From Prevotella sp. (lineage in GTDB: Bacteria > Bacteroidota > Bacteroidia > Bacteroidales > Bacteroidaceae): a stretch of 44,903 nucleotides of DNA. The translations under genes were made by a program, and so were the position numbers. The notes under the pieces were generated by a model, which was given only the letters and a program-made list of their open reading frames with translations, ran no database searches and was not told where the DNA came from. The stretch covers positions 1 to 44,903 of the forward strand of contig JAFVFY010000055.1 in the NCBI GenBank assembly GCA_017475265.1, given 5' to 3'. Below, in pieces: positions 6,872-44,903 of this stretch. Within the stretch, counting starts at the first letter, position 1. Each line of letters begins with the position of its first letter.

Positions 6872-6906
6872 AATTATCAATTGCCAATTATCAATTGTCA
6901 ATCTTC
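6872..6906. repeat. Heptamer array (5 units), overlapping a stop codon
   Basis: Successive 7-base units are AATTATC, AATTGCC, AATTATC, AATTGTC and AATCTTC, with no indel. The TGA stop of the small gene (6898-6900) lies inside the array. Confidence 0.85.
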
Positions 6907-7053
6907 CTCCTCCCAGTCGTTGTCGCTGGAGCCGCGTGAGAACTGCACGCCAGTCTGGCCCACGGCCTCGTGGGCATAGGGGCTTTGGGCAATCATCTGT
7001 ATGGTATGGATGCGTACTACCTTCACCGAAGGCTTCTGATAATTCTTTTTCAT
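6898..7053 (-). CDS. Small 51-aa Bacteroidales hypothetical protein
   Basis: This frame starts at ATG 7053 and encodes 51 residues beginning MKKNYQKPSVKVVRIHTIQM and ending in the acidic DNDWEEED. The pattern MKK-Y-KP-V-V, a hydrophobic stretch, then an S-P motif and a charged tail, is one I recognise from many short uncharacterised proteins in Prevotella and Bacteroides, often beside secreted proteins. No signal peptide or known domain is seen. It lies 65 bases after the large adhesin gene on the same strand and is followed by a strong hairpin, so the two may be cotranscribed. Function is unknown. Confidence 0.7.
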   Translation of the reverse strand: MKKNYQKPSVKVVRIHTIQMIAQSPYAHEAVGQTGVQFSRGSSDNDWEEED

Positions 7054-7118
7054 ATCGCTATAATATTTTTTTGGAAACTAATGACCGTAATTGTTCCGTA
7101 ATTGTTATAATCTTTAGT

Positions 7119-10100
7119 TTACTTAATAACAACTTTCTTTCCGTTGATGATGTAGAGACCCTTCTTCTTGATTGAAGATTGAGAATTGAAGATTGAAGAA
7201 TCCATGCGGCGGCCCTGCAGGTCATAGACATAACTATCAACTTTCAATCTTCCATTTTCAATTTCAACGATGCCTTCCGTCTCACCAAACTCGGGCAGGG
7301 CAAAGAAGGAGCGAGAAGAAGCGCTGGGCAGAGCCAGCCATACCTTGTGGGCACCGCTCTGGAAGGCTGCGCCGCCCTCAGCACCCCAGTACCAGCCGAT
7401 GTTCTCGCCGTTGGTGTCGTAGCTCAGCTTGTAGAACTTCGCGCCGCCAGTGGTCGTGGTGGCCACGTTGTTGCCGTGCAGCATGTTTGTCTGGCTGATG
7501 GCGGAAGCAGCGGGGCTTACGAGCTTGATGGGGCTGGTATGGCTCGACATAGCGGGAGCCACCTGCAGCATCATGGCTGTTGCGGCGGGCACGGTTTTCT
7601 CCTCGGTGTCGCCGTCGGCGATGGTCTCATAGGCCAATGCGCCTTCATTTCCCTGTGAGGTGACGATGCGGGCCTTCATGCCGGCGGGCAGCTCCACGTC
7701 GCGCTCGCTGTTATAGTAGGTGCCGAAGCCCTCCTTGGCAAAGGTCACGTCGGCAGACTCAGAGGTGGACGGCTTGGTCAGGCGAATCTGATTCTTTGAT
7801 GTTGTTCTACTAGTAAAAGAAAAGTCTGATAGGGCGGTCGGGTCAGGATTGCTGCCGTTTTTGTAGCAGTACAGAGTCTGATATGTGTTCGCTTTATAAC
7901 AACGGAAGCTATAATTATTAGTTTCACCGCTGCCCGTATTGTCATCTACAACGAGCAAGACATTGTGCAGTCCGTCATAATCAAAGCTCTTGTCCAGTGT
8001 GATGTTTGTCCACGCATTTTTAATAAAGGTCACGTCGCCGCTGAATACGCGGTCGGCAGTGGTGACAGAAACCCCGTCGGTAATACTTTCAAAACTCTCT
8101 TTGTCTGTGCTTACCATATAGATATCTAAGTTCCGGGGACTCTCAGTACCCTCGTGGGCGAAGAAATCTATACTGTTGATGGTGTTTGCCTCGCCCAGCT
8201 CGCCTTTAGTAAATATTTGTTGCGTCAAAGCATATCCATAATATTGACTTTGACTGGTGGGGACATTGTAATTATAGCTGTTAGAGGAACTAAACTGGCC
8301 TATGACCAGCTTGTCGGTTGGCTCGAACTCCACTACTTTACTGCTCCAATCAGACCGATGGTCGCCACCATAGTCGGCACATACCTTGGCTTCATAGCTC
8401 TGATCCTCTGTAAGACCAGTCAGGGTGAAAGGATTGCTGTTGACTTTTACCTCAGTATAGTCTGCGTCGCTCTTTGCCTTGTAGGCCACCACCCATGCCT
8501 TGGCATCTCCTCCTTCCGTCCAACTCAGCGTAGCCGTATTGGCCGTGAATGTGGTAAGAGCCAGGTTGGTTGGAGCAATTAATTTCGTTTTAAAGCTTAT
8601 CTCTTTGCTCCAGGGGCTTTGCTCGGTTTCGCTGCAGCAGGCGCGCACTTTGGCGGTGTAGGTGGTCAGGAAGTCCAGGTTTTTCAGGGTGTAAGGATTG
8701 CAGGTAACGTTTACCTCAGTGAAATCCGCATCGCCTTCAGCCTTGTAGGCCAATATCCAGGCATTGGCTCCGTTTGCATCCCAACTGAGTGTGGCCTTGC
8801 GGCTCATTATGTCGGCAGCGCTAAAGTTGGTAGGCACTTGGCATGAGGGAACATCCTCCACGATGATGTCATCAATGTAATCATTAACAGTTGGTGATTC
8901 GCTGTTGGCAGCTTCAATCATAATGGCAATGTAGTTGCCCTCCACGCCAGACAGCGGAAAGATGTATTCGGTATGGGTTGCGGTCAGTTCCTGGGTGGCA
9001 ATCTCATGGAAGGTGGTGGCATCCGCAGGATCCACCATTCTGCCAATCTTGAAGGTGCTGCCTTCCGTTGATGAGGCAGTCCAGGCAGTCAGTCTGATTT
9101 GCTTCCCATTTAAGTTCTCCATCTCAGGCAAGATGGCATATTGGTCCTTCGGGTCATACTCCGTGGTTTCATGGAATCTGGAGGAGAATCTAAGATGTTT
9201 GGAATATACATAAGGATAAGCTTTATAAGTATTGTGAGTACTTTTGTTGATTGTTTCCCAGCAAATGGGCATCGCTTTATTTGCATAGTCATTGAAATTT
9301 TCCGTCCACGGATATTGCTTGACTGCGCCACCTTTCTTCCATCCGCTGGTCTTGCCATTGCCACAGTCAGTCAGCACACGCACATTATATACTGTTGTCG
9401 ATGCCAGCCCGGTCAGGTTATAGCTATTGGTCGTCAGCCCGTCCACTTCCGTCCATTCAGTGGCATTGGAAGCCTTGTATTGCAATTTCCACAAATTGCC
9501 CTCGCCCTCCCATGTCACTGTGGCCGAGTTGATAGTGATGTTGGAAAATGATATGTCGGTAGGATTGGAGCAGTCGCTTTGCGTGATACCAAGGTTGATG
9601 TTGGCCCGGTAAGCACAGAGTTTTTTATCACCATCGTATGAAGACAATGCGTTCAGGTTTGGCACAGATGTTGTGCTGTAATAGCATAATGCTGTGTTAT
9701 CTGTGGTTGAGTGAGTGCGGAACTTGTAATTGGGTCCTTGGTAACCAGCTGTTTCGTCATAGAAGCAAATCAGCAGATTGCTGGTGCCGTCGTATTCAAA
9801 AGGTGTGTCAAGGTTGATTTTAAGTCTGCCCAATCCGGAGCATGTCAAGGTGCCTTCCCACACTTTGTCGCTTTCGCCGACAATCACCATGTCTGTTTCG
9901 TTGTCAAAAGATTGCTTGTCAACATTCTTCATGAACATCTGTACGTGCGGCATTGACAAATCCGGATCATCCTTTTGGGCTAAATCAAAAGTAATGTAAG
10001 TGATGGTTCCGGCCTCACCAATTTCCTCCTCTTTGTAAATCTGTTGCGCCAGGGAATAATCTTTGGACGGGGCAACAGGCAAATACCAATCCGAGTTGTA

Positions 10101-11498
10101 TGTTGCTGTACCAATGGCAATCTCATAGACCACTTCGAGGGTTACGCTCTTGGCACCCGAATAGCTGCCCTTTCCAGTGAATGTAAGTTCGTAGATGCCC
10201 TTTTCCTTCACCTCGGTTACGGAGTTGCCTCCCTTGGTGATGGTCACGTCATAGTCGGTGCCGTCACTCATCGAGGTGCCGTCAGAGGCCGTAACAGCAT
10301 AGTTGATGGCGATGGCTTCGCCTGTGTACTGGTAGAACGACTGTATGCCGCTGATGGTGCTACTTTCAATTCTTTTAGAATCAATGGGTTGCTTGAAGCG
10401 CAGTTCGCAAAGCTGCATGAAATCATTTCCCGTTGTTTGGCTAATCATGAAACGGAAATACTGGTATTTACCAGGAGTGTCGAGTGTAAATTCATAGTCT
10501 GTGAATGCAATGTTACCCATATTGCTGTTTTCGACAGTGGCGATAGTTGTCCAAGTGTCGTTATTATTCGCCTTTGCCTTGAGTTCCCACGAATTGGGAT
10601 TTCGGCCCTGATAGTCACGGTGATAAGGAGAGTTGTCATTGCCCGTAGTGAGGATATATTTCTCAATATTAATGGGCTCGCTGGCATGGAAATCCACCCA
10701 GTAGTACTCACCAGTCTCGCCTGCCGGAGTACCCTTGGTACTGGTACCCCACTTTGTCCAACCTGTGTTCTTGGAGAACAATCCGTCTACAAGTTTGTCA
10801 TAACCTTCATTACCTGTTCCGCCCGTGCCACCAGTAGCGGTGAAGCCAGTGATAATATGTCCCGTTAGTGGCCATGTTGAGGGAGACTTTTGCATAATGG
10901 GCACCACCTTGCCGTTCTTCACCTCCCAGCCAGAGCCGAGCGCGGTGACAAGTTGGTCTGCAGTCATGCTGCTGGCATCGGTGCCTTGGGCAACATTCAA
11001 TGTGCGGGTGTAATAGGAATTGACGAGACTTGAAGATGTGGCTTTTGCCTTAGGGCGGATGAAGGTGCAGGCCTCATAATCTTGATTATCGTAGGTATCC
11101 AGCACCTCGGTCTCGCCCGTTCCGAGGGTGGCGGGGGCGTATAGGCAGTTGCTGACGGTGGGGGCCACATTAGCCCAGCCAATAAAACCGCCACACTGGT
11201 TGGTACTGTTGGTGGTAAGTAGTTTACCATCGAAGAGGGTGTTGGTGATGGTGACCGTTCCACTCGCAAAATTGCTGATGATACCGCCGTGGGTGCCGTC
11301 GCCGCTTTTGCTGCTGTTGATAACGACGCTGCACCAGCAGTTCTGTATGGTGACCGTCCCTTCGGTGCGGGCTACGATGCCGGCACTGTACTTGCCGTCA
11401 GATGTGATGGTGCCTGCTGTGTGTAGGTTCTTGATAGTGGCGCTCTCTGCAAACCGGAAGGGGGCCATGTAGGCATCGCCGCCGCCAGCGTGCGTCAC
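7119..11498 (-). CDS. Multidomain secreted/surface protein, 5'-truncated, with Bacteroidetes C-terminal tail
   Basis: The 1,459-residue open frame begins inside a domain. The first ~145 residues resemble a GLUG/beta-helix domain (FAESATIKNLHTAGTITSDG) whose start is missing. There is no signal peptide, and an in-frame TAA lies three codons before the GTG at 11498. A discoidin-like domain follows (~220-370), then an Ig-like segment (~370-460), a first adhesin-like module (~461-640), a fibronectin III domain (~641-725), a MAM/cleaved-adhesin-like domain (~726-885), two more fibronectin III domains (~884-1060) and a second adhesin-like module (~1061-1225). The tail has VYDLQGRR and KKGLYIINGKKVVIK, the form common in secreted Bacteroidales proteins. 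An intact relative would be exported and bind glycans or proteins. This copy is probably not secreted and may be a pseudogene. Confidence 0.8.
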   Translation of the reverse strand: MTHAGGGDAYMAPFRFAESATIKNLHTAGTITSDGKYSAGIVARTEGTVTIQNCWCSVVINSSKSGDGTHGGIISNFASGTVTITNTLFDGKLLTTNSTNQCGGFIGWANVAPTVSNCLYAPATLGTGETEVLDTYDNQDYEACTFIRPKAKATSSSLVNSYYTRTLNVAQGTDASSMTADQLVTALGSGWEVKNGKVVPIMQKSPSTWPLTGHIITGFTATGGTGGTGNEGYDKLVDGLFSKNTGWTKWGTSTKGTPAGETGEYYWVDFHASEPINIEKYILTTGNDNSPYHRDYQGRNPNSWELKAKANNNDTWTTIATVENSNMGNIAFTDYEFTLDTPGKYQYFRFMISQTTGNDFMQLCELRFKQPIDSKRIESSTISGIQSFYQYTGEAIAINYAVTASDGTSMSDGTDYDVTITKGGNSVTEVKEKGIYELTFTGKGSYSGAKSVTLEVVYEIAIGTATYNSDWYLPVAPSKDYSLAQQIYKEEEIGEAGTITYITFDLAQKDDPDLSMPHVQMFMKNVDKQSFDNETDMVIVGESDKVWEGTLTCSGLGRLKINLDTPFEYDGTSNLLICFYDETAGYQGPNYKFRTHSTTDNTALCYYSTTSVPNLNALSSYDGDKKLCAYRANINLGITQSDCSNPTDISFSNITINSATVTWEGEGNLWKLQYKASNATEWTEVDGLTTNSYNLTGLASTTVYNVRVLTDCGNGKTSGWKKGGAVKQYPWTENFNDYANKAMPICWETINKSTHNTYKAYPYVYSKHLRFSSRFHETTEYDPKDQYAILPEMENLNGKQIRLTAWTASSTEGSTFKIGRMVDPADATTFHEIATQELTATHTEYIFPLSGVEGNYIAIMIEAANSESPTVNDYIDDIIVEDVPSCQVPTNFSAADIMSRKATLSWDANGANAWILAYKAEGDADFTEVNVTCNPYTLKNLDFLTTYTAKVRACCSETEQSPWSKEISFKTKLIAPTNLALTTFTANTATLSWTEGGDAKAWVVAYKAKSDADYTEVKVNSNPFTLTGLTEDQSYEAKVCADYGGDHRSDWSSKVVEFEPTDKLVIGQFSSSNSYNYNVPTSQSQYYGYALTQQIFTKGELGEANTINSIDFFAHEGTESPRNLDIYMVSTDKESFESITDGVSVTTADRVFSGDVTFIKNAWTNITLDKSFDYDGLHNVLLVVDDNTGSGETNNYSFRCYKANTYQTLYCYKNGSNPDPTALSDFSFTSRTTSKNQIRLTKPSTSESADVTFAKEGFGTYYNSERDVELPAGMKARIVTSQGNEGALAYETIADGDTEEKTVPAATAMMLQVAPAMSSHTSPIKLVSPAASAISQTNMLHGNNVATTTTGGAKFYKLSYDTNGENIGWYWGAEGGAAFQSGAHKVWLALPSASSRSFFALPEFGETEGIVEIENGRLKVDSYVYDLQGRRMDSSIFNSQSSIKKKGLYIINGKKVVIK
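7170..7197. repeat. Heptamer array inside the adhesin C-terminal tail
   Basis: The four units GATTGAA, GATTGAG, AATTGAA and GATTGAA are exact in length. Read on the minus strand they encode the serine/asparagine-rich SSIFNSQSSI between the QGRR and KGLYI motifs of the tail. Confidence 0.8.
7233..7267. repeat. Second heptamer array inside the adhesin C-terminal tail
   Basis: The five units ACTATCA, ACTTTCA, ATCTTCC, ATTTTCA and ATTTCAA encode EIENGRLKVDSY, the linker just before VYDLQGRR. Confidence 0.7.
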
Positions 11499-12541: not shown

Positions 12542-12545
12542 CTAC

Positions 12546-12580
12546 AACAATAAACAATAACCAATAAACAATAACCAATA
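12546..12580. repeat. Heptamer array (5 units) between proS and the AraC gene
   Basis: The units AACAATA, AACAATA, ACCAATA, AACAATA and ACCAATA run without indels and fill almost the whole 41-base gap. The TAA stop of proS (12583-12585) follows two bases after the last full unit. Confidence 0.85.
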
Positions 12581-12582
12581 AA

Positions 12583-14064
12583 TTAGTAGCTGCGTGCTAT
12601 GATGACACGATACTTAGAGGGTTTTCCTGAGACCATGTCCACACCAGGTGTCTGCTCGTAGGCGAAGGGCACGCAGCGTATGGTGGCCTGTGTCTCCTCC
12701 TTGATTTGAGCCTCAGTCTCAGCAGTACCGTCCCAGTGACAGAGGAAGAAGCCGCCATCCTTGACGCGCTCCTTGAACTCCTCGTAGTTCTCGCACTCGT
12801 AGACGTGTTCGTCACGATACTTACGGGCTTTCTCGAAGATGTTCTGTTGGATGTCATCGAGCAGTTTCTCCACATGGTCTACGATGCCTTCGAGGGGAAG
12901 TGTTTCCTTCTCCAGGGTATCACGACGCATGAGTTCAATGGTGCCGTTCTCCAAGTCTCGGGCACCGAGGACAAGACGAACGGGAACGCCCTTCAACTCA
13001 TAGTCGGCAAACTTGAAGCCTGGACGCTTGTTGTCTGCATCGTCGAACTTCACGCTGATGCCCTTCTTGCGCAGACCCTCGATGATGGGCTGTACCTCAC
13101 GGTTGACAATCTCCATCTGCTCAGGCTTGGTGGCAATGGGGATGATGACCACCTGTATGGGAGCCAGACGCGGCGGCAGCACCAGTCCGTTGTCGTCGGA
13201 GTGGGTCATGATGAGGGCACCAATGAGTCGTGTAGAGACACCCCATGAGGTAGCCCAGACATACTCAGGCTTGTTCTCCTTATTTAAATAGGTGACGTCG
13301 AAAGCTTTGGCAAAGTTCTGACCCAGGAAGTGGCTGGTGCCACTCTGAAGGGCCTTACCATCCTGCATCATGGCCTCAATGGTATAGGTGTCGAGGGCTC
13401 CGGCGAAACGCTCGGTCTCACTTTTAACGCCCTGCAGCACAGGCACGGCCATCCAGTTCTCGGCAAAGTCAGCATAGACCTTCAGCATCAGCTGGGCCTC
13501 CTTCTCAGCCTCCTCACGGGTAGCATGGGCTGTGTGACCCTCCTGCCAGAGAAACTCAGAAGTGCGCAGGAAAGGACGTGTGCGCATCTCCCAACGCATG
13601 ACATTACACCACTGGTTGCACATCAGGGGCAGGTCGCGCCAGGAGTGAATCCAGTTCTTGTAGGTGTTCCAGATGATGGTCTCAGAGGTAGGACGGATGA
13701 TGAGCTCCTCCTCCAGCTTAGCAGCAGGGTCAACCACTACACCGCTCTTGTCGTCTGTGGCCTTCAGGCGGTAGTGAGTCACCACGGCACACTCCTTGGC
13801 GAAACCCTCCACATGCTCAGCCTCACGAGAGAGGAATGACTTGGGAATCAACAGGGGGAAGTAGGCGTTCTGAGCACCCGTCTCCTTGAACATCTTGTCC
13901 AGCTGCTGCTGCATCTTTTCCCAGATAGCATATCCGTAGGGTTTTATCACCATGCAGCCACGTACTGCACTCTGCTCAGCCAGGTCGGCCTTTACTACCA
14001 AGTCGTTATACCACTGACTGTAGTTGTCAGCGCGTTTTGTCAAATCTTTCAGTTCTTTTGCCAT
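12583..14064 (-). CDS. proS: Prolyl-tRNA synthetase, short (eukaryote/archaea-like) form
   Basis: This 493-residue class II synthetase charges tRNA-Pro with proline in the cytoplasm. Visible landmarks are RPTSET (motif 2 region), [25 protein letters not shown], the anticodon-binding domain from about residue 290 ([11 protein letters not shown]) and the C-terminal extension ending YRVIIARSY. It lacks the inserted editing domain of the long bacterial form, as is usual in Bacteroidetes. A good promoter lies just upstream at 14097-14127. Length and motifs are intact, so it is very likely functional and essential. Confidence 0.97.
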
Positions 14065-14165: not shown

Positions 14166-15236
14166 CTATTTCGCGAAAGCCTTCCTGAGGTCTTCGAGCT
14201 TGAGGAGCGTGAGGTCTTCGGCAGAATTGTTCTTCTCCTTGGAGAGGCGGTTGGCCTGGCATTGGATGGCCTTCTCGAAGAGGTTGCGCACGTAGCGGGC
14301 ATTGCCGAAGTTGTGGTCTTTGTGCTCCACGACATCGTTCAGCTGCTGTTTCAGGAAGGCAGCTCCCTCGCTACTGATGTTGTACTGGTTCTTGCGCAGG
14401 TACATAAGAAAGATGTCGTAGAGTTCGGCTGCGGTGTAGTCAGGGAAGTTGATGTAGCGGTTGAAGCGCGACTGCAGGCCGGGGTTAGTGTTGATGAAGT
14501 CCTTCATTTCGTCGGTGTAACCAGCCACGATGACCACCAGACGGTCACGGTCGTCCTCCATGCGCTTGAGCAGGGTGGCTACGGCCTCGTCACCATAGTC
14601 CTGCTTGCCGCCTTGCGTCAGGGCGTAGGCCTCGTCGATGAAGAGCACACCGTTGAGTGCCGAGTCGCACATCTGGTTCACGCGGGGTGCCGTCTGGCCG
14701 ACGTACTGGCCAATAAGACCTGAGCGGTCAGTCTCCACGAGGTGGCCTTTCTTCAGGATGCCCAGGTCTTTGTAGATGCGTGCCACGATGCGTGCCACGG
14801 TGGTCTTACCTGTTCCGGGAGAACCGGTAAATACAAGGTGGTAGGACAGCTTGGGATTCTTCAGCCCCTGCTTCTCGCGTTGCTTCTGCACCTTCACGTA
14901 GTTGGCCAGCGAGCGCACTTCCTCCTTCACCGACTCCAGACCAATCAGCTCGTCGAGTTCCTGGTAGGGGTCGCTCTCCATCGGTTCCTTCACCTTCACC
15001 TCGTCAGCATCTTTGGAAGGTTCTTCGTCGTCCACGCCCTCCGACTTGATGTCGAACTTGTAGCCGCCGCTCTCCGAGCCGTCGTCATTGTCGTTGGTGT
15101 TCTCTGAGTAGTTTTCTGACTTCTTGCCATCGTCGTCGGCATCTATCACGATGGTGAGAACGCCGAGGACAACAAAGATAACGGCCACACTAACTATAAT
15201 GGTCGTGATTTGCTTACTAGTGAAAAAGTTTGCCAT
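14166..15236 (-). CDS. Membrane-anchored CbxX/CfxQ-type AAA+ ATPase
   Basis: This 356-residue protein has one N-terminal membrane segment (residues ~11-31). A very acidic, Ser/Asp/Glu-rich linker follows (~32-95), then one AAA+ module. Walker A is GSPGTGKTT (Lys144) and Walker B is VLFIDEAYAL (Asp201, Glu202). The order and spacing match the CbxX/CfxQ/SpoVK group, whose best-known members remodel Rubisco or work in type VII secretion; neither system is present here. The anchor would place the ATPase on the cytoplasmic face of the inner membrane. It lies between proS and the VanZ-like gene on the same strand. The 214-base upstream gap is nearly all heptamer array, with no clear promoter, so it may be transcribed from the VanZ-like promoter. 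Its substrate is unknown. Confidence 0.85.
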   Translation of the reverse strand: MANFFTSKQITTIIVSVAVIFVVLGVLTIVIDADDDGKKSENYSENTNDNDDGSESGGYKFDIKSEGVDDEEPSKDADEVKVKEPMESDPYQELDELIGLESVKEEVRSLANYVKVQKQREKQGLKNPKLSYHLVFTGSPGTGKTTVARIVARIYKDLGILKKGHLVETDRSGLIGQYVGQTAPRVNQMCDSALNGVLFIDEAYALTQGGKQDYGDEAVATLLKRMEDDRDRLVVIVAGYTDEMKDFINTNPGLQSRFNRYINFPDYTAAELYDIFLMYLRKNQYNISSEGAAFLKQQLNDVVEHKDHNFGNARYVRNLFEKAIQCQANRLSKEKNNSAEDLTLLKLEDLRKAFAK

Positions 15237-15240
15237 GTTG

Positions 15241-15450
15241 TTTATCGTTTATTGTTTATTGTCTATCGTCTATCGTCTATCGTCTATTGTCTATCGTCTA
15301 TGGTCTATAGTCTAAAGTCTATGGTCTATAGTCTAAAGTCTATGGTCTATCGTCTATAGTCTAAAGTCTATGGTCTATAGTCTAAAGTCTAAAGTCTATC
15401 GTCTAAAGTCTATCGTCTATCGTCTATAGTCTAAAGTCTATGGTCTATAG
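15241..15450. repeat. Thirty consecutive heptamers without indels
   Basis: Exactly 30 units of 7 bases fill 15241-15450. The variants are TCTATCG, TCTATGG, TCTATAG, TCTAAAG, TCTATTG, TTTATTG and TTTATCG. A 21-base higher-order pattern (TCTATGG TCTATAG TCTAAAG) recurs several times. The array starts 4 bases from the ATPase start codon and ends at the base before the VanZ-like stop codon. Two further units continue into that gene. Confidence 0.97.
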
Positions 15451-15894
15451 TCATATTCTATTGTCTATTGTTGCATACGCCAAAAATGGCAGGACGTAGA
15501 GCGCGAGGTCTGTCCAGTCGAAGGTGCCAGGTATGATGCCCATTGCCTGCATCAGTTCCGAGGTTGCCCCCAATGTGGGGATGAACGCCACCGCTGTCCA
15601 TCTTCGTTTTGCGGGTAGTCTTTGTGCCAACATTCCCATGATGAGTACATAGCTCGTGGCCCATAGTCCTGCGGGCAGACAGTAGACGATGAACTCCGCT
15701 GGTTGCCAAGCCGATGCAGCTTGTAGCCGCCACTGGCTGATAGCGTCCGTCAGTCCCAGACCCTCGGCCACGTGGAAGAGCAGCAACGTCTGCGGGCGGT
15801 AGAGCACATAAAGCATGCCGCCCATGAAGAGCAGCATAACGCCCATGAACAGACTGCTCAGCGCATAGCTCTTTGTACATACTTTACTGTTCAT
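15451..15894 (-). CDS. VanZ-like small membrane protein
   Basis: This 147-residue protein has about four predicted membrane segments. Its C-terminal half (LGATSELMQAMGIIPGTFDWTDLALYVLPFLAYA) resembles the Glu-x-x-Gln and Asp-containing pattern of VanZ-like proteins, a family linked in some bacteria to glycopeptide tolerance but mostly of unknown role. I chose the ATG at 15894 because it directly follows a good promoter. The frame is open to 16200, but that extension is low-complexity and crosses the promoter region and the dxr start. The last residues, TIDNRI, are encoded by two heptamer repeat units. VanZ assignment is tentative. Confidence 0.65.
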   Translation of the reverse strand: MNSKVCTKSYALSSLFMGVMLLFMGGMLYVLYRPQTLLLFHVAEGLGLTDAISQWRLQAASAWQPAEFIVYCLPAGLWATSYVLIMGMLAQRLPAKRRWTAVAFIPTLGATSELMQAMGIIPGTFDWTDLALYVLPFLAYATIDNRI

Positions 15895-15898
15895 TGTG

Positions 15899-16082: not shown

Positions 16083-16096
16083 CGGCCGATTTCGTG

Positions 16097-16124
16097 AATT
16101 GACAATTGAGAATTGATAATTGAG
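16097..16124. repeat. Heptamer array (4 units) just before the dxr start codon
   Basis: The units AATTGAC, AATTGAG, AATTGAT and AATTGAG are followed by AATTA and then the ATG of dxr, so the array forms the 5' untranslated region. Confidence 0.85.
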
Positions 16125-16129
16125 AATTA

Positions 16130-17287
16130 ATGAAACAGAAACGACAGATAGCCATTCTAGGCTCTACGGGCAGCATCGGCACGCAGGCGTTGGAGGTCAT
16201 CAGCGAACATAGTGACTTGTATGAGGTCTACTGCCTGACGGCCAACAACCGCGTGGAGCTGCTGGCAGAGCAGGCTCATCAATATCATCCCGCTGCCGTG
16301 GTCATCGCCAACGAGGCACGTTACGACGAGCTGAAGGCACTGATGACCGACCTGCCCGACGTGAAGGTCTATGCCGGCGCGAAGGCTCTTGACGACATCG
16401 TGGAGGCCGGCCCCATCGACATGGTACTCACGGCTATGGTGGGCTTTGCAGGTCTTTCGCCGACCATCCATGCCATTAAGGCTCATAAGACCATTTGCCT
16501 GGCCAACAAGGAGACACTCGTCGTGGCTGGCGAACTGATTTGTCGCTTGGCGATGGAGAACCATGCCGCCATACTTCCCGTAGACAGCGAGCACTCTGCC
16601 ATCTTCCAGAGCCTCGTAGGTGAGGACGGCAACGACATCGACAAGATTCTGCTCACGGCCAGCGGAGGTCCCTTCCGCACAAAGAGCCTCGACGAGATTG
16701 CCACCGTGACGAAAGCCGATGCCCTGCGTCACCCCACATGGGACATGGGCGCAAAGATTACCATCGACTCCGCCACGATGATGAATAAGGGCTTTGAGGT
16801 CATTGAAGCCAAATGGCTCTTTGGCGTGAAACCCTCACAGATAGAGGTGTACGTTCACCCGCAGAGCATTGTTCATTCTGCCGTGCAGTTCATGGACGGC
16901 TCGGTAAAAGCCCAGCTGGGTGTTCCCGACATGCGCCTGCCCATTCAGTACGCTTTCTCGTTCCCGTGTAGGTTGCCGCTCAGTGGCAACAGACTGGATC
17001 TCTTTACCGCCCAGCACCTTGACTTCTTCAAGCCTGACATGCAGAAGTTCCCCTGCCTCCGTCTGGCCTACGAAGCCCTCGATAAAGGCGGCAACATGCC
17101 CTGTATCGTCAATGCGGCCAACGAGATTGTGAACCGTGCCTTCCTCGAAGACCGCTGCCGATTCCTCCAGATGGCTGAAGTCATCGGAGAGACCATGCAG
17201 CGCGTCACGTTCATCAAGACACCATCATACGACGACTATATCAACACAGACCGCGAGGCTCGGCAGATAGCCTCTTCATTACTTTAG
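16130..17287 (+). CDS. dxr: 1-deoxy-D-xylulose-5-phosphate reductoisomerase
   Basis: This 385-residue enzyme converts 1-deoxy-xylulose 5-phosphate to methylerythritol 4-phosphate using NADPH. It is the first committed step of the non-mevalonate isoprenoid pathway. The nucleotide-binding motif GSTGSIGTQALEV is at residues 11-23. The metal- and substrate-binding segment PVDSEHSAIFQ has Asp152 and Glu154. The MNKGFEVIEAKWLFG block follows near residue 230. Length is normal. The neighbour rseP, 124 bases downstream on the same strand, is a frequent partner of dxr in bacteria. The two are separated here by a large inverted repeat. Confidence 0.97.
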   Translation: MKQKRQIAILGSTGSIGTQALEVISEHSDLYEVYCLTANNRVELLAEQAHQYHPAAVVIANEARYDELKALMTDLPDVKVYAGAKALDDIVEAGPIDMVLTAMVGFAGLSPTIHAIKAHKTICLANKETLVVAGELICRLAMENHAAILPVDSEHSAIFQSLVGEDGNDIDKILLTASGGPFRTKSLDEIATVTKADALRHPTWDMGAKITIDSATMMNKGFEVIEAKWLFGVKPSQIEVYVHPQSIVHSAVQFMDGSVKAQLGVPDMRLPIQYAFSFPCRLPLSGNRLDLFTAQHLDFFKPDMQKFPCLRLAYEALDKGGNMPCIVNAANEIVNRAFLEDRCRFLQMAEVIGETMQRVTFIKTPSYDDYINTDREARQIASSLL

Positions 17288-17401
17288 CCCCCTAAGTTAG
17301 GGGGGTGGGGGTCTGAACAAGCGCGGACTCCTAATACATATTATAATAAATGGGTCTGATGTTACGCTTGTTCAGACCCCCAACCCCCTAACTTAGGGGG
17401 C
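17287..17401. repeat. 37-bp inverted repeat filling the dxr-rseP gap
   Basis: Arms at 17287-17323 and 17365-17401 are reverse complements at 36 of 37 positions, around a 41-base AT-rich loop. Each arm begins with a smaller near-palindrome, CCCCCTAAGTTAGGGGG. The left arm starts at the last base of the dxr stop codon, and the right arm ends 9 bases before the rseP ATG. The GC-rich arms contrast with the loop. This looks like a dispersed MITE or REP-type element and would form a strong hairpin in the dxr-rseP transcript. Confidence 0.92.
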
Positions 17402-17410
17402 TTAGATAAA

Positions 17411-18862
17411 ATGGAAATCTTTCTTATTAAGACCTTACAGTTCTTCATGGCCATCAGCTTGCTCGTGTTGCTTCACGAGCTGGGTCATTTCTTCTTTGCC
17501 AAGCTCTTCGGAGTACGCGTGAATAGGTTCTACCTCTTCTTTAACCCGAAGTTCCACCTTGCCAGCACCTACGACACGTGGGTGCGCCGTCTGTTCAAGA
17601 TGAAGCCCGAAGTGGTGCCTTCGAAAGAGGTTACCGTGACCGATGACAAGGGTAAGACGAAAACCGTGCAGGAGAAAGAGTACGTGGGCACAGAGTATGG
17701 CCTGGGCTGGCTTCCTCTGGGTGGCTACTGCGCCATTGACGGCATGATTGACGAGACCAACCAGAAGCTCTCTGAGGAGACCCATCCCTGGGAGTTCCGC
17801 GTGAAGCCCACGTGGCAGCGACTGCTCATCATGATAGGCGGTGTGCTGGTGAACTTCCTCCTCGCGCTGTTCATCTATGCCATGGTGCTCTACACTTGGG
17901 GCGAGACATACGTGCCCGTGCAGCAGATGACCCATGGAATGGAATTCAACGAGCAGGCCCGTCGTCTGGGATTCCAGGACGGTGACATTCTTCTGGGTAC
18001 GGAGGAAGGTGACTTCAAGAAGTTCGACGTGGATGTGCTGCGCACCCTCACCGAGCCTCACGACATCCGCGTGATGCGTGGCGGCGTGGAGACGACCATC
18101 CACCAGACCGAGGAGCTGAACCTCCTCGACATGCTGAAGAGCGAACCGCCCTTTGCCCGTGCACGTATTCCTGCCGTTATTGACTCCGTGATGCCCGGCA
18201 CTCCTGCTGAGAAGGCCGGTCTGCGCAAGGGTGACCTCTTGTTGGCTATCAACGGACATGAGGTGGCCTCCTTCGGACAGTTTACCGACCAGCTAGCAGT
18301 CATTGCCGACCGTATCAATGAGATGCCCGCCGACAGCCTGGCCATGCGCCGTGTCACCGTGGTTTACGAACGCGACGGACAGCGTGACACCATCTCCACT
18401 ACGCTCACCGCTGAGCTGAAACTGGGCTTTGCACCGGCATCGCCCTACAAACCTACAACGGTGGAATATGGTTTCTTTAAGAGCCTTCCCGCAGGTGCTG
18501 TCTATGGATGGGACGTGCTGGCATCCTACGTCAACGACCTGAAGTATGTCTTTACTGCCGACGGAGCGAAGTCGCTTGGTGGTTTCGGCACCATCGGCTC
18601 GCTGTTCCCCGACTCTTGGGATTGGCACCGCTTCTGGATGATGACGGCGCTGCTCTCCATCATCCTCGCCTTCATGAACATCCTGCCCATACCGGCACTT
18701 GATGGCGGACATGTGCTCTTCCTGCTCTATGAGATGATTACCGGCCGCAAACCCTCTGACGAGTTCATGGTGCGTGCGGAGTACATCGGCTTCGGATTCG
18801 TCATCATCCTCATGGTGCTGGCCAACCTCAACGACATACTGCGCTGGCTGGGGTATATGTAG
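17411..18862 (+). CDS. rseP: RseP-type site-2 intramembrane metalloprotease
   Basis: This 483-residue inner-membrane zinc protease belongs to the M50/site-2 family. HELGH lies in the first membrane segment (residues 22-26). The second metal motif NILPIPALDGGHVLF is near the C-terminus (Asp431), as in RseP. A PDZ domain (~250-335, with VMPGTPAEKAGLRKGDLLLAINGHEV) sits between membrane segments. Bacterial members cut membrane-bound anti-sigma factors or leftover signal peptides. An inserted segment after residue ~60 (EVTVTDDKGKTKTVQEKEY) is charged. No sigma or anti-sigma gene adjoins, so its target cannot be inferred. Confidence 0.95.
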   Translation: MEIFLIKTLQFFMAISLLVLLHELGHFFFAKLFGVRVNRFYLFFNPKFHLASTYDTWVRRLFKMKPEVVPSKEVTVTDDKGKTKTVQEKEYVGTEYGLGWLPLGGYCAIDGMIDETNQKLSEETHPWEFRVKPTWQRLLIMIGGVLVNFLLALFIYAMVLYTWGETYVPVQQMTHGMEFNEQARRLGFQDGDILLGTEEGDFKKFDVDVLRTLTEPHDIRVMRGGVETTIHQTEELNLLDMLKSEPPFARARIPAVIDSVMPGTPAEKAGLRKGDLLLAINGHEVASFGQFTDQLAVIADRINEMPADSLAMRRVTVVYERDGQRDTISTTLTAELKLGFAPASPYKPTTVEYGFFKSLPAGAVYGWDVLASYVNDLKYVFTADGAKSLGGFGTIGSLFPDSWDWHRFWMMTALLSIILAFMNILPIPALDGGHVLFLLYEMITGRKPSDEFMVRAEYIGFGFVIILMVLANLNDILRWLGYM

Positions 18863-18937
18863 AGTCGAGAGTTAGGAGTTAGGAGTTAGGAGTTGCGCAG
18901 CTAAATAGTAAATCGTAAATCCGTAAATAGTAAATCT
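18863..18937. repeat. Two heptamer arrays between rseP and uvrB
   Basis: AGTCGAG, three copies of AGTTAGG and AGTTGCG occupy 18863-18897. TAAATAG, TAAATCG, TAAATCC, TAAATAG and TAAATCT occupy 18902-18937, with one extra G at 18923. Together they fill nearly the whole gap and supply the in-frame TAA just before the uvrB start. Confidence 0.85.
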
Positions 18938-18939: not shown

Positions 18940-20964
18940 TTGGATTTTCACCTAACATCGAAGTATCAGCCTACGGGCGACCAGCCGGAGGCCATCCGCG
19001 AACTCACCGCTGGAGTAGAGCGTGGTGACCGTGCCCAGGTATTGCTTGGCGTTACGGGGTCGGGCAAGACGTTCACTATGGCCAACGTCATCGCCAACGT
19101 GAACCGTCCGACGCTTATCCTCTCCCATAACAAGACGCTGGCGGCACAGCTCTACGACGAGATGCGGGGCTTCTTCCCCGACAACGCCGTGGAGTACTAT
19201 GTCTCCTACTACGACTATTACCAGCCCGAGGCATATCTTCCTTCGACCGACACTTACATTGAGAAAGACCTGGACATCAACGACGAGATAGACCGTCTGC
19301 GCCTCTCCGCCGTGAGCAGCTTGCTTTCAGGACGGCGCGACGTGGTGGTCGTGTCCAGTGTTTCGTGTATCTACGGTATGGGCAGCCCCAATGCCCTCTC
19401 GGAGAATGTCATCGAGGTTGTCCAGGGCAAGAAGATGGACCGCAACGCCCTGCTCCGCAAGCTGGTACAGTCGCTCTACGTGCGCAATGACCTAGCGCTG
19501 GAGCGTGGCAACTTCCGCGTGAAGGGCGATACCGTAGACATCTATATGGCCTACAACGACATCGTCCTGCGCATCACGTTCTGGGACGATGAGATAGACG
19601 GCATTGAAGAGCTCGACCCTGTCACCCTACAGCGTCTGGGTCGCTATGCCGACTATAAGATTTATCCTGCCAACCTCTTCATGACCACCGAGGAGCAGAC
19701 GCAGCGGGCCATCCGCATGATTCAGGACGACCTTGTCAAGCAGGTGGACTTCTTCACCGAGCTGGGCGACCCCATCAAGGCCCAGCGTATCAAGGAGCGT
19801 GTGGAGTATGACATGGAGATGATCAAGGAGCTGGGCCACTGCTCTGGCATTGAGAACTATTCCCGCTACTTCGACGGTCGTCAGGCGGGCGAGCGGCCCT
19901 ACTGTCTGCTCGACTTCTTCCCCAAGGACTTCCTGCTCTTCATCGACGAGAGCCATGTCTCCGTGCCGCAGATAGGAGGCATGTATGGTGGTGACCGGGC
20001 TCGCAAGACCAATCTCGTGGAGTATGGTTTTCGTCTGCCCGCCGCCTTCGACAACCGTCCGCTCACCTTCGAGGAGTTCCAGCAGAACACTGGCCAGCGC
20101 ATCTACGTCTCGGCCACACCTGCCGACTTCGAGCTTCAGGAGGCCGAGGGCGTTGTTGTGGAGCAGGTCATTCGTCCAACGGGTCTGCTTGACCCAGAGA
20201 TTGAGGTGCGCCCCTCGGAAAACCAGATAGACGACCTGATGGAAGAGATTCGCCAGCGCACGGAGCGCCATGAGCGTGTGCTTGTTACCACGCTCACTAA
20301 GCGAATGGCCGAGGAGCTGTCGGAGTTTCTGCTCAACCACGGTGTGAAGACGGCCTACATACACAGCGACGTGGCAACGCTCGAGCGTGTGAAGATACTC
20401 GACGACTTGCGCAGCGGAGCCTACGACGTTCTCGTCGGCGTGAACCTTCTGCGCGAGGGTCTCGACCTGCCGGAGGTGTCGCTCGTGGCCATCCTCGATG
20501 CCGACAAGGAGGGCTTCCTTCGCAGCCGCCGCTCCCTGGTGCAGACCGCCGGACGTGCCGCCCGCAATGTAAACGGACGTGTCATCATGTATGCCGACAC
20601 CATCACCCGCTCCATGCAGGAGACCATCGACGAGACAAACCGCCGCCGTACCAAGCAGCTGAAATATAATGAGGAGCACGGCATCACGCCCACGCAGATT
20701 GTGAAGAACTTGAAGCAGAGCGCGTTAGGGCATGACGACAGAGTGGACATGAAGGAACTCAGTTCTCAATCCTCAACGCTCAATCCTCAACTCGGCATCG
20801 CCGCCGACCCCATCATCGCCGCCATGACACGTCCGCAGATGGAGAAGCTCATCGCGGAGACCACACGGCGCATGAAAGAGGCCGCCAAGCAGATGGATTT
20901 CCTGCAGGCGGCCCAGTATCGCGACGAAATCATTCGTCTGAAAAACGAACTGGAGTTGAAATGA
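18940..20964 (+). CDS. uvrB: Excinuclease ABC subunit B
   Basis: This 674-residue protein is the DNA damage-verifying helicase-like subunit of nucleotide excision repair, working with UvrA and UvrC. Walker A is GVTGSGKTF (Lys43). The beta-hairpin region [16 protein letters not shown] is present, as are the helicase motifs [21 protein letters not shown] and [16 protein letters not shown]. The C-terminal UVR motif (~635-672) ends in [13 protein letters not shown]. The start is TTG: it gives the normal UvrB N-terminus ([18 protein letters not shown]), and an in-frame TAA lies only three codons upstream, so no ATG is possible. A heptamer array encodes [12 protein letters not shown] in the linker before the UVR motif. 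Confidence 0.96.
20761..20795. repeat. Heptamer array inside uvrB
   Basis: The units AGTTCTC, AATCCTC, AACGCTC, AATCCTC and AACTCGG are exact 7-mers. They encode a Ser/Gln/Asn-rich linker between the helicase core and the UVR motif. The frame is kept because 35 bases plus flanks are read through normally. Confidence 0.8.
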
Positions 20965-31900: not shown

Positions 31901-33029
31901 CTGTGCCAGCGCTTCCTATATCCGTATTATTACCTACGTTGAAGACCACGTTAGTACTTTCACTTGATTGCGAGGCAGCACCAGCGGTGGTTTTGTCCCA
32001 CTGATAGAAATGATCGGAGGAAAGTGCGACAAACTCGTACTTACTGGTGTTCACAATACTTGTGTACCTATTGGCAGTCGGATCCTCCAGAGTATATTTG
32101 CCATATTCCAGATCTTTTGTTCCCAAGACACTTGTCGTACCACTTGGATTCAGATATTCATCTGTAGAGCCATATTTCTTTATGAAAAAAACACCATCAG
32201 TGCCTGATTCTTCTAATGTCCAAAGACCGTCTTGATGATAGGCTGCAGCTGTCGGCAGCGTCCAAAGGGACTTGTCAGCAGGAATAATTGATTGCCTTGA
32301 CGATACGTTAGATGCTCTTAAGCCCCCAGTGTTGGTAGCGGGCGGATTTCCTGTGCCCGAATAGGTGAGGTAGTGGCGGGTGGTTGCGGCTTGGGGATCA
32401 GTATTATCAATTCCTTCACCACGGTAATAGATGATATGGGCAGCAGTAGGCTTTAACTTGGCAAAACGGACGAAATTAACCGTATTATATCCCCCTGTAT
32501 TAATAATACCGCCCCATTCAGAACCTGACCAGCGACCCAAGCGTTGGTTATTAGTTGTTATTAATTCCTTGAAACCAGCGCGGTAGCTTCCTCGTTCACT
32601 GATTGAAAATTCTGACGCATTGGCTTCTGTAGCAGTGGTATAAAATCTATTATTATCATAATATGCATAAAAACCTCTTTTGCTCTTCAGTTTAAAATGA
32701 GTTGCATCACTACCTGCTACTAATGTCCACAATCTGTTGGAGGCAAAGGGAAGATAGTCCATCGCCTGCATCTGTTGACCCTCACCCAGCTCACCTAAGA
32801 AAGACTGATACAAATATGGTGAATAAATCTCTTCTTTATAAAATTGGACGTAATAATATTCTCCGTCACCGACAACAGGATTCTTCGTCTCGAAGGCATC
32901 AGGCATCTCAGGTGTAATGCTCACTGGCTGCGCCGTTGTCTGTTGTGTGTTTACTAAAGTCGATACACCGAGCAGCAGGGCTGTTCGGAGCAGGGTGGAG
33001 GTATATCTGAAAAGTTGTTTCATCTTCAT
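22956..33029 (-). CDS. Giant secreted surface protein (3,357 aa) with type IX secretion-type C-terminal domain
   Basis: The protein is about 370 kDa and has no overall family that I recognise. Residues 1-35 are a signal peptide. Two related modules of about 140 residues follow (~330-476 and ~480-625), sharing the YADxxGxKKLVIxGT and VHxNxIK patterns of beta-sandwich binding modules. A region near 1410-1728 looks like a carbohydrate-binding beta-sandwich. Near 2387 there is WTGGAGNVDWNNDENW, a motif seen in surface proteins. An acidic DVDLDGDGIYGEEIDLNNNG segment near 3036 looks calcium-binding. The last ~75 residues (VRCFDLSGRLIHTAE, then PSAGVYIIEAQTKN and a basic end) match the T9SS type A sorting domain. 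It is probably exported and attached to the surface as an adhesin or matrix protein. Its own promoter was not found; a 27-bp repeat and a KilA-N gene lie directly upstream. A second ATG two codons in (33023) is also possible. Confidence 0.85.
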   Translation of the reverse strand: MKMKQLFRYTSTLLRTALLLGVSTLVNTQQTTAQPVSITPEMPDAFETKNPVVGDGEYYYVQFYKEEIYSPYLYQSFLGELGEGQQMQAMDYLPFASNRLWTLVAGSDATHFKLKSKRGFYAYYDNNRFYTTATEANASEFSISERGSYRAGFKELITTNNQRLGRWSGSEWGGIINTGGYNTVNFVRFAKLKPTAAHIIYYRGEGIDNTDPQAATTRHYLTYSGTGNPPATNTGGLRASNVSSRQSIIPADKSLWTLPTAAAYHQDGLWTLEESGTDGVFFIKKYGSTDEYLNPSGTTSVLGTKDLEYGKYTLEDPTANRYTSIVNTSKYEFVALSSDHFYQWDKTTAGAASQSSESTNVVFNVGNNTDIGSAGTVVGTGEVWYHTYADMTGCKKLVIEGTPSMYLRVSLNRQVPIDPSEQGYDSHGGSLVQRYCMLDENGRGEVDVSDLPYVHINAIKNWGGSTGQVNSIDVVRPKLEPVSLAQSQFHYWNDLNAESVNTESPSDVYFHVNGYTISPSDNLVAGTGSVYYLTYADLSGSKKLVIKGTSGMIVRVILNRQEPITPGEQGYDQNGGSFVERVTTIGSNGYAEVDLSDLSYVHLNSIKVRNDSPSGTITEINLIRLATTGDVRYLHYDQGDGWQVPQWTNKYNDIWYAAFYPVEVPVPNKDEFFQVLVGLRSSVGNNVKIELTGGNMTMTDVTDQGQNNGPIYGASFTPTDDRQHAFQYTNFPTHNFKSIVIEFGEPVPSGWNIHAYGEQGDFESLEGKMRYEITLDPSKKIDDFTIFNWYGVRSTIKISACYFTSYDNMPTEMVAYSGWATTYSELEDERILWQLEQVDDYTEFRLKNPNNGTYLKPFGQGVTAPNDPDDAEVYTNLKFSENNGFTLKWFIPTKKAPKEIRVNHYVTHRESYLKQYSEAHQDLDLKAQGLATEVESDWWNFDGNGFDTPQKGTQKVNHFEITHYIKQGNSMVVEFPTVLNKSNDHIYFQRFFNYDEMDTSMDLDNLKAHVSLDTRDDGDVQYFLYNNGMVTGQKLDWRYYDEDTQTSIDIPDGGMARNEQRRFNFTNSDGNAFTVAVDVSKYSDMTYEDTTNPTLGNLEEPSLTMRYIYYMKDAKDMADDLTTRTESYTAVTNTTNRYPADEGWYVSDGNGGYTRTTDIEPQTGTTYYTRSSWKETKDFHFPARRIAYELSKKVGYRGEFIGLRHIFSDYWVYDDNGTDDENLVSAVNSNSEGKIEVEIEDPMNLGIRLGGWNPTLARTQATTQNPNGHLKFVDNVDTYDADTEADFRGFYFYDKMSDQNKTQYGDSRFVVFRYPEGGVISQPTYTIVKDGTEIVFHKKAYVNVYLNNNGKRYQLAQFTIIFDPLTQTIPWKLTDTSVTNPENPTVDNPLKFVEGSYRDPAKLVEQAGKPIAKITFDYPTNDTYHFPANGETKQGWSTFTGGTLSDCSPIPLAFAGDNSKTNYSFSGFECNWGSYSIVNKMTTNYGNHQNAAPANDIEYGYGPTDEEIAANEQLRSLRPDAGLQNGFLYIDASEQPGDICSAPFIGDFCAGDKLMFTGWISGSNKMGGNDDRCPGGITLTVKGEHNVHNPDGSIVYENGKPKKETVTLYRFCPGQCYELDDNPNSSDPDGSGNDTEESLRHFGAEYTDSNGNTVKNGDYIDANGNKVDDQHHVPNPNCDNRNYHVIWQQFYFEFIVSDKYDRHWIEVNNNCVSSQGGDFMLDNVEVYAIVPEVIPGVNTPLCVSIDENGNEVTDMRLLKLSVDFNKLKKSANVNSGTAQIGFAFLDKYKFLEKFKYELAQLTSTRKHELHLDAFDFANITVDELAAAIEDGELTSITGDEPAYQHAFDEAIVGKKTTWYSNKPEEYEQKKNSSILYFEWNSDFNAMEEYSFQKAVNKTSPVYREVVKGEKFIVMNGNFPQMDWKTNTEYYIIDTNIPFEPGSGEHFEIFNICSECTMTNVFRIDPPYHVLGLESTETTNDYVVCEGQIPTIVLNLKGFDLKGNKLDMNGINYDWWLGNPTYTETETVTENGNTTTITKRPKLATLENYHKQHKEITYEDNNGSHTVDVRLDKALSTLRTYYPSVTSLDGIEKEVVHAPDPALTLPMIKYLKTLVASGELVLHQTSVSIPAEKVSETDPYFYMVACPIHDDEFDRALNPAADEYVAYYCDEPQGLRIKVDGKAPRLQTGFVPGERGFTSYNYNFPEGTNPVLSIRLAKAAQFEMVKNEEEEVKITNAGTGEVTYSLSESVNYLWLPIRNALTEGASGVIKKSQDDNIYLASSNDLTWDKKISKEMDKNGSLPIVGRIVQLEAINTFDHIDEDTKQVIYKNINNQNDENRLCVYFTKNFEVREGYNYTLSLPFQEDDNSNACDGTILFNLKIVPDYEVWTGGAGNVDWNNDENWRRADGNTTLNNDVYGDELYRANGAMNNEDSPLHEYVTNKDNYYSSSKKANAKPSKDQILRKGFAPLYCTHVLMKNDEWGNAPVLYDALDVETTGNNNQLQDVPFPNLRDTSTPILKFDMQARKYSLWYETYGKNPDRGRSGHPNDLIAEMYKVNSCDEIAFQSGTELMNAHLLNYNSAWVEYQLDNKRWYLLGSPLQGTISGEWYAPTGTAKQETTYYDPVKFGAGYDRYSPAIYQRSWDKAKAVLYEVGAEYDKDDDKQDANLGTDDEGKWSGTGDNATWSVEGGGAADEYLDRLGYKPMGGMKANVAIKGVWSNTYNDAQVDYATGGFSVMVMNHLKNNDTSNGKSVIRLPKEDRMYDYYEFSEWGGKENAGGTDTELSDVWTKNRAKNRGRLKTDNLLPMQNGIQKQESTATAAIRYGDQRTYTRIPIYEDALQTMNNSFLPSVGDDGALQPPTAGFFTETIPAGVSNLGFYLVENPFPSGLDMDKFFAANSVTFTEAEINAAQEGEPAYGKTTDDVKEGLYKKYWILTKTGQHLVQKAANGDWLTSDGTPVTYDTNKTFYPHAVVAPGQGFFVQARTAGENTTINFNREMQAQSRFGVKDNENGTSYTIVVGQAQKMEQLVIEGEPQYIDVDLDGDGIYGEEIDLNNNGTPGETYTVQVEEDGETVTKTIVEREVEAVMVPVYTEEDDPDNPGQTIKIPVLKDIEEDVVIYKYKQEDLDVTHKKEYPLLSRRTRGGASSLPGLVITAQRGNDQSSALVMKREEASNDFLPSEDTETFICSEDLKNVPMVYTLCGRLATTINSIHDFRSLPLGVESASDALCVLTFEGVELLGDSIAFYDAKEQKLTPLESGMTFEVSGQTQNRYYLVSTLIQEEAAVETHLQIFNEGLTARVIASTEEPIVNVRCFDLSGRLIHTAEPKSQEYSFRLPSAGVYIIEAQTKNDRKTKKVMAK
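31160..32040 (-). repeat. Internal duplication in the giant surface protein
   Basis: Two adjacent modules, about 31601-32040 and 31160-31590, encode similar proteins. The shared order is a FHYW/FYQW start, VxFxVxxY, a YADxxGxKKLVIxGT strand, LNRQxPI, EQGYD, GGS, then DVSDLxYVHxNxIK. The DNA has diverged, so the duplication is old. Confidence 0.75.
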
Positions 33030-38890: not shown

Positions 38891-38896
38891 TGTTGT

Positions 38897-38938
38897 GATT
38901 TGCGATTTACGAATTTTCGATTTCGAATTATGGATTTT
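38897..38938. repeat. Heptamer array (6 units) between two fimbrial genes
   Basis: The units GATTTGC, GATTTAC, GAATTTT, CGATTTC, GAATTAT and GGATTTT run without indels. They end inside the TAA stop of the mfa2-like gene (38937-38939) and lie 6 bases from the next ATG. Confidence 0.85.
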
Positions 38939-44400: not shown

Positions 44401-44447
44401 ATAAGGTTAATACATTGTCTGATTCTTATGATTCTAAATTCGAGTGG

Positions 44448-44480
44448 CAAAAGTACAATAAATTTGTTTTATATTTCAAA
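44448..44480 (-). promoter_or_regulatory. Promoter of the fimbrial operon
   Basis: On the minus strand TACTTTTG (44448-44455) is preceded by TTTG (44477-44480) with a 21-base spacer. It is the only good promoter seen for the six fimbrial genes, which supports a single long transcript. Confidence 0.7.
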
Positions 44481-44694
44481 ATGTATAATTATTTTAAGCA
44501 GTTTTTGATTTTGTTAAACATTCCAACGTCAGCCTCACAATCACAGCTATAAACGGGACTGTCGTTTGTCCCGGTGCATGATGTCTAAACAAAGGAAAGA
44601 CCACGGATAAACATACAGATACCCCCCAATTTCGTAAAGTATTCACAAAAAATCTATAATTATTGCTTTAGTTCTTGTAAAAAATGTAAAAACA
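44481..44694. other. Divergent intergenic region with a small hairpin
   Basis: No gene is seen. CGGGAC (44554-44559) and GTCCCG (44568-44573) form a 6-bp hairpin. The stretch before 44695 is very AT-rich and could act as an UP-type element for the promoter that follows. Confidence 0.45.
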
Positions 44695-44726
44695 TTTGTG
44701 AGTTCTGGAAGAAGTGCGTACCTTTG
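44695..44726 (+). promoter_or_regulatory. Strong consensus promoter, probably for an rRNA operon
   Basis: TTTG (44695-44698), a 20-base spacer and TACCTTTG (44719-44726) form a full consensus Bacteroidetes promoter, with an AT-rich region upstream. No protein-coding start follows in the remaining 177 bases. Confidence 0.75.
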
Positions 44727-44903
44727 CATCCGCTTTCGCTCAAAAATTGGGTGTAGGCCAATAGGAAAGAGTTCTTTGAAAGATTTACATAGACAGAAGA
44801 AGTAGTACAAGAAGCAGCGGAATTATCGATTGTCAATTATCAATTGTCAATTAGTTTCCGTTGGGTAAATGAAACGAACCGTTCAATTCGCTTATACATA
44901 TAA
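44727..44903 (+). other. Probable rRNA operon leader with boxA-like element (partial)
   Basis: The transcript from 44719 would carry GTTCTTTGAAAG at 44771-44782. This resembles boxA, the antitermination signal ahead of 16S rRNA. The rest of the leader is non-coding. The sequence near the right edge looks like the untranslated stretch before 16S rRNA in Prevotella as I remember it. The 16S gene itself is outside the window, so this is an inference. Confidence 0.55.
44821..44855. repeat. Heptamer array (5 units) in the presumed rRNA leader
   Basis: The units AATTATC, GATTGTC, AATTATC, AATTGTC and AATTAGT are nearly the same as the array at 6872-6906. Confidence 0.85.

Follow-up and report, generated by a model that had tools for sequence, protein, structure and literature searches.

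Short degenerate heptanucleotide arrays in a Prevotella genome: position, turnover between species and probable growth in place

Heptanucleotides were the commonest repeat class in most of the genomes studied by Mrazek (2007, cited in PMC4679880), and a seven-nucleotide contact of the polymerase was proposed as the cause (Mrazek 2007, cited in PMC4679880 and PMC4692102). In the accessible text of this literature no settled cause was found for the excess, which has been reported since 2007 (cited in PMC4679880). Direct repeats of one heptamer, TAACTGA, are distributed among Beggiatoaceae, Cyanobacteria and five Bacteroidetes (MacGregor 2015, PMC4679880), and heptamers lying near start codons, including those of Bacteroidetes, are missing in close relatives (PMC4679880). 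A literature search returned nothing on heptamer tandem repeats in Prevotella, which is no proof of absence, and the available part of PMC4060949 held no match for heptanucleotide.

The stretch analysed here, referred to throughout as the window, comprises all 44,903 nucleotides of contig JAFVFY010000055.1 (assembly GCA_017475265.1, Prevotella sp.), which is contig 84 of a 4.75 Mb genome in 135 contigs. The nearest named relatives of the product of its AAA gene come from Prevotella metagenome-assembled genomes of yak rumen and reticulum and of red deer, so the organism is likely to be a ruminant-gut Prevotella. When an array was defined by at least 16 self-matches out of 21 at lag 7, nine period-7 clusters were detected, at 6872, 7169, 7232, 12543, 15234, 16092, 18858, 20763 and 44821, compared with a mean of 0.1 in 30 dinucleotide shuffles of the window; by the same self-match test, periods 4-6 and 8-13 gave 0 or 1 cluster each. 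An earlier note had counted ten arrays of period 7, nearly all of them free of indels and differing in their units. A period-7 row of TRF is present at all ten, and nine pass the self-match test, the weak array at 38897 failing it; eight of the ten period-7 rows have 0% indels, the exceptions being 7232 (6%) and 38897 (9%); and the words do differ between arrays, but are held in common above chance level. The same note had placed the array at 44821 in a presumed rRNA leader, for which no support was obtained: Rfam at gathering scores gave no match anywhere in the window, although the contig ends at 44903 and an rRNA gene may lie further on.

The arrays occupy a variety of contexts. An AATTATC/AATTGCC array (6872..6906, no strand assigned) lies in intergenic sequence flanked by two minus-strand genes, and a hairpin-like stretch was seen by eye adjoining it. 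Two minus-strand arrays fall within the fn3 protein gene at 7119-11498: that at 7169..7201 codes DSSIFNSQSSIK near the C terminus, whilst the weaker one at 7232..7268 (6% indels), detected by TRF and by self-match, is inverted relative to its neighbour with 71% identity over 28 nt. On the same strand, AACAATA/ACCAATA units (12543..12585) occupy almost the whole gap between a proS-like stop and the start of an AraC-type gene (12542-12582), and about 30 units of GACNATA/AACAATA (15234..15468) span the gap between the AAA gene (14166-15236), at whose start codon they begin, and the ORF upstream of it, whose 3' end they enter. Three plus-strand arrays follow: GAATTGA/CAATTGA in the dxr leader (16092..16133), between the ATG at 16130 and a shared stretch that is presumed to be promoter-like; GAGTTAG (18858..18900), after the rseP-like stop at 18862; and CTCAATC/CTCAACG inside uvrB (20763..20790), coding 11 residues of the linker that precedes the UVR domain. 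A further plus-strand TAAATCG/TAAATAG array (18902..18936), of mixed 7/8 step and with 6% indels, lies 5' of the uvrB ORF start at 18940. The weak GATTTAC array (minus strand, 38891..38937, 9% indels) lies in the gap between the start of a fimbrillin-like gene as called (38890) and the next stop (38937), and AATTATC/AATTGTC (44821..44854, no strand assigned) lies 49 bases from the contig end. Elsewhere in the window, a 22-bp quasi-palindromic unit occurs six times within positions 1-139, and a very long minus-strand ORF of 3357 aa extends over 22956-33029.

The excess of period 7 extends to the rest of the genome. A sample of 400 kb, taken as twenty 20-kb stretches on contigs of this genome picked for length, contained 77 period-7 clusters against none in a Markov-2 control. 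The excess also stands in the comparison with periods 5, 6, 8 and 9 that the earlier note had proposed. The array density of one per approximately 5 kb may be somewhat high, as the stretches came from a pattern-match list and were chosen for length. With the cut raised to 17 of 21 and overlapping multiples dropped, the 400 kb held 63 clusters of period 7, 22 of period 22, 19 of period 9, 11 of period 11, five of period 8 and four of period 10, with six for periods 4-6 together. Period 7 is thus the mode and not the sole period, since 9, 11 and 22 also occur. The arrays are enriched outside genes: by the authors' own gene caller, 57 kb of intergenic sequence from sample and window carried 39 clusters of period 7 (with 5, 15, 4, 9 and 23 of periods 8, 9, 10, 11 and 22), compared with 30 in 388 kb of coding sequence (period 9, four; period 22, none). 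In the concatenated gaps alone there were 33 period-7 clusters versus 0.0 in a Markov-4 control. Twenty other Prevotella genomes, sampled at 40 kb each and selected for long contigs, also have period 7 as the mode (41 clusters, with 10, 12, 10, 4 and 20 for periods 8, 9, 10, 11 and 22, and three for periods 4-6), at densities ranging from 0 to 10 per 40 kb. Across the order the distribution is patchy, with 20 clusters in 236 kb from ten genomes selected by pattern count and three in 351 kb from ten others; each set of ten includes one genome that was read as N. The pattern CTCAATTCTCAATTCTCA, which matches 161 of 393 genomes of the order, was rejected as a census, its backward control being a heptamer array in its own right. 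Other repeat families were observed as well: 22-bp tandem families of several sequences recurring in the genome sample (23 intergenic, none in genes), a separate period-9 family AATTCGTNN / AATCCGTNN (L012, L014, L018, L020, L021, L025 and L027), and a period-11 family TTTCACTCCCC arranged as inverted pairs (L012, L016 and L018).

The words themselves vary but recur. The 77 arrays of the sample and nine of the window, 86 in all, fall into 35 consensus word classes. Identical word pairs amount to 5.4%, against 0.5% for letter-shuffled words, some neighbouring arrays being non-independent; this tenfold recurrence argues against a purely sequence-blind mechanism. In other Prevotella, 32% of 50 arrays match a word of this genome exactly, compared with 11% in the control (maximum 22%). 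Among 29 arrays from other Bacteroidales families, 41% share a word with this genome, versus 9% for shuffled words, and 14% versus 9% share one with the other Prevotella, which lies inside the control range (maximum 21%). A claim of word sharing across families was dropped, as most of these arrays come from genomes that had been chosen by CTCAATTCTCAATTCTCA or by its backward control; the standing of the main readings is unaffected, none having depended solely on it.

Comparison of orthologous loci, made between species with one genome per species, reveals turnover: in relatives the array is missing, or another word or period is found in its place. The gap 5' of the AAA gene, with its approximately 30 units here, has about 10 in L031 and a short seed-like stretch in L033, and no array units were seen in that gap in L032. 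The units adjoining the ATG are AACAATA/AACGATA, the word of L031, the remainder having drifted to GACNATA; retention of the L031 word at the start-codon edge is what growth in place would leave. Over 28 units of this array, identity is 9/25 at a spacing of three units, 7/21 at seven and 7/18 at ten, compared with 4/27 for neighbours, single lags carrying no significance test; identities three, seven and ten units apart are as left by block duplication. At dxr, the promoter-like stretch is common to L069, L074, L092 and others, from which the array is absent. Of 30 dxr-rseP gaps (this genome and 29 relatives), 14 show a self-match of at least 12/14, a count that has no chance control; the period is 7 in seven of these, 8 in five, 10 in one and 11 in one, and the remaining gaps have lower self-match, are too short or are unmeasured. 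The occurrence of periods 7, 8 and 10-11 in this gap in other Prevotella argues against exclusivity of the seven-base step.

These features are probably best accounted for by short, degenerate heptanucleotide arrays that are born and grow in place, through slipped-strand or block duplication with a seven-base preference, and are then filtered by selection. In such a scheme, arrays would arise and lengthen where they stand, during the copying of DNA; the duplications would strongly favour seven-base steps, and the arrays would turn over between species. Selection would retain them wherever the sequence is unconstrained: in leaders and gaps, mostly beside start codons, and in those protein loops in which the array runs in a direction that keeps the frame open. 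The earlier note had favoured a mechanism of seven-base spacing over the copying of a mobile repeat. The single period, with its many words and differing flanks, partly supports this view; the recurring words tell against a mechanism that is purely sequence-blind, and the other periods against one exclusive to seven.

Among the alternatives, the one that survives best derives the arrays from small, dispersed, mobile palindromic elements (MITE- or REP-like), of which they would form the ends or arms, solo arrays being remnants. It is most concrete in a relative, G736, where the query of one heptamer-tipped element returned 80 matches (both strands counted) and, as scored by script, GTGTAGA arms flank a conserved core on both sides at nine of 13 fetched loci. 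The two arms of one element are more alike there (24.9/28) than arms of different elements (23.8/28; n = 9, P 0.008), which also speaks for this alternative. So do the inverted partners found within 600 bp at 80% or more for 14 of the 86 arrays (both pair members counted), as against 1/86 in the control, and the similar element that is present in the dxr-rseP gap of L074, L076, L087 and L096. In other Prevotella stretches, GCTACCGCT lies within 80 nt of an array at three of its four matches, a further point in favour. Against it, 72 of the 86 arrays are without an inverted partner at 80%, and any one 6-mer of the 40-nt flanks recurs at nine of the 86 at most, the commonest being pieces of neighbouring heptamers. 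The G736 core motif, moreover, has no match in the genome of the window at up to one mismatch, and its pattern matches 24 times, in 23 of 150 Prevotella genomes (G736 excluded), which is not above the backward control. A conserved element sequence recurring at many loci was thus found for the G736 element and not for the arrays of this genome. A single mobile repeat as their source was therefore rejected, on the absence of flanks in common and the control-level frequency of the G736 core, and the broader palindromic-element account is considered unlikely. A second candidate core motif (CGCTCGRCC / GGYCGAGCG, GGWCGCTTGC / GCAAGCGWCC) was also set aside, having too few matches to carry a case: in the 400 kb, an array lies no further than 80 nt from 3/8 and 3/6 matches of two of its written forms, which probably mark the same sites, and from none of the other forms.

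Palindromic elements were also observed individually. In G736, the element at L100:19099-19284 has heptamer-built 35-bp arms that match exactly around a conserved core, and is amplified in that genome. In the window, the dxr-rseP gap contains a palindromic element at 17288-17410 with arms CCCCCTAAGTTAGGGGG, which is also seen in the same gap in L069 and L070; it has 100 matches in its own genome (both strands counted), with about 30 places near full length.

The position of the arrays relative to genes bears on a second alternative, according to which they have a function in leaders, for example as unstructured or protein-bound tracts for ribosome loading, and are selected beside start codons. 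By a crude gene and start caller of the authors' own, which missed the ORF at 15451, 38 of the 86 arrays lie inside called genes, 38 in same-strand gaps, five in divergent gaps, two in convergent gaps and three at edges. Arrays crowd at start codons: 28 of 43 scorable gap arrays end within 20 nt of the downstream start, where placing each at random within its own gap would give 21.6 (P 0.005), and in gaps of at least 100 bp the count is 12 of 21 versus 3.9 expected. This crowding beyond uniform placement may reflect function and is a point in favour of leader elements; in addition, TAACTGA repeats lie mostly just upstream of starts, and translational regulation has been proposed for them in the available text of PMC4679880. 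However, leader arrays have no strand preference (C-rich 13, G-rich 18, equal 5), and arrays also lie close behind stops, with 42% within 20 nt after one versus 22% of random gap positions. The 38 arrays inside called genes likewise count against a leader function, as does the variation of word and period between species at the same gene, several species being without an array. Taken as a whole, this alternative appears improbable, more so than the palindromic elements. Leader arrays occur in both directions, a stop-free frame being found in the sense direction for 14 and in the antisense direction for 16 of 36, whilst in-gene arrays are in the tolerated direction (sense 31, antisense 7 of 38), the sense-open count being partly circular because a called gene requires an open frame. 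Selection against closed frames would set this in-gene direction under the preferred reading of growth in place.

Within proteins, the arrays code for loops rich in Ser, Asn and Gln, such as SNLKSQT, STLNSQL and MVNGQSS. The array-coded linker of UvrB is unlike most of the similar-length linkers of 29 orthologs, one of which (L141) has NPQL in common with it. In IleRS, an array adds 10 aa relative to the 15 of 25 orthologs that have a short loop, the other 10 carrying unrelated, longer sequence in that loop, and the array-coded stretch is absent from the deposited IleRS 8c8w. The net insertion of 30 nt is no clean multiple of seven. Three arrays, one adding 10 aa, are found in the gene of an AMP-binding enzyme (Pfam), which is taken to be MenE-like; its array at L027:455-494 has an in-frame stop inside, the C-terminal part continuing in the same frame. 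Near-identical arrays at 7169-7201 and L030:16525-16557 accompany the same C-terminal stretch (DLQGRRM...KKG) in two different proteins, a likeness suggesting that this domain may have been copied along with its array. At L020:9231-13282, several arrays per gene surround a GC-rich core (CTTGC...GCAAGCGTCC..GGCCGAGCGG) inside open frames, an arrangement that somewhat resembles the Rickettsia-type palindromic insert.

A template-driven enzyme (telomerase- or retroelement-like) adding heptamers at breaks would explain the fixed step and the words common within genome and genus, and variation at certain unit positions was noted by eye in its favour, but many words would require many templates, and the block structure and edge words of the long array are what local duplication gives, leaving this by far the least credible of the alternatives. 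Loss of MutS was discarded as a cause, since a full-length MutS frame, over the cut-off, is present in the genome.

Slippage is the best generator on hand for arrays that grow in place, although it does not by itself account for the step of seven, the recurring words or the inverted pairs. Neither the words shared within genome and genus nor the inverted partners are predicted by slippage alone, and coding insertions other than clean multiples of seven also count against it. A bolder and rather doubtful reading is that some Bacteroidales possess a replication or repair activity that produces tandem copies in fixed seven-base steps, favours a small number of words, and keeps rewriting leaders as well as the surface loops of essential proteins. 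If true, such an activity would supply new linker peptides and 5' leaders throughout the genome. With an array every approximately 5 kb, drift within arrays and other periods in sister species, this genome is well suited to a direct measurement of the step, and the in-frame repeat loops of UvrB, IleRS and other enzymes matter for gene calling in Prevotella and for models of protein families.

The closest of the known systems are the prokaryotic heptanucleotide repeats of Mrazek (2007), which, as far as the citing text describes them, have the same excess of seven-nucleotide units over other lengths. Here too, units of 5-11 nt occur beyond chance (degenerate arrays being counted, where the 2007 definition may need exact repeats), seven is the commonest unit length and the arrays are enriched outside genes; they differ from those repeats, so described, in their many degenerate words, frequent in-frame coding copies, drift within arrays and other periods arranged as inverted pairs. 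The TAACTGA repeats, in the portion of PMC4679880 available, likewise lie directly upstream of starts, with the matching gap empty in close relatives and other heptamers alongside in Bacteroidetes. There a single word is involved, whose class is absent from the 35 consensus classes of the 86 arrays, and the forward orientation of the TAACTGA pattern is not seen here, leader arrays having no direction bias. GGGAATC and GGGGA(C/T)T of Xanthomonas and Nostoc (Rehm 2015, PMC4692102, available text) are also intergenic heptamers whose length and sequence vary between relatives, but they are G-rich quadruplex formers of one word type, whereas the words here are mostly AT-rich. Rickettsia palindromic elements share the in-frame insertion into housekeeping genes but, in the accessible part of PMC10969869, form families of about 150 bp with conserved sequence, whereas no conserved element sequence was found here. 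The arrays of this genome are a known kind of repeat, and what is new in them is their density, their many drifting words, their presence in-frame in loops of core enzymes and the change of word and period from species to species at a given site.
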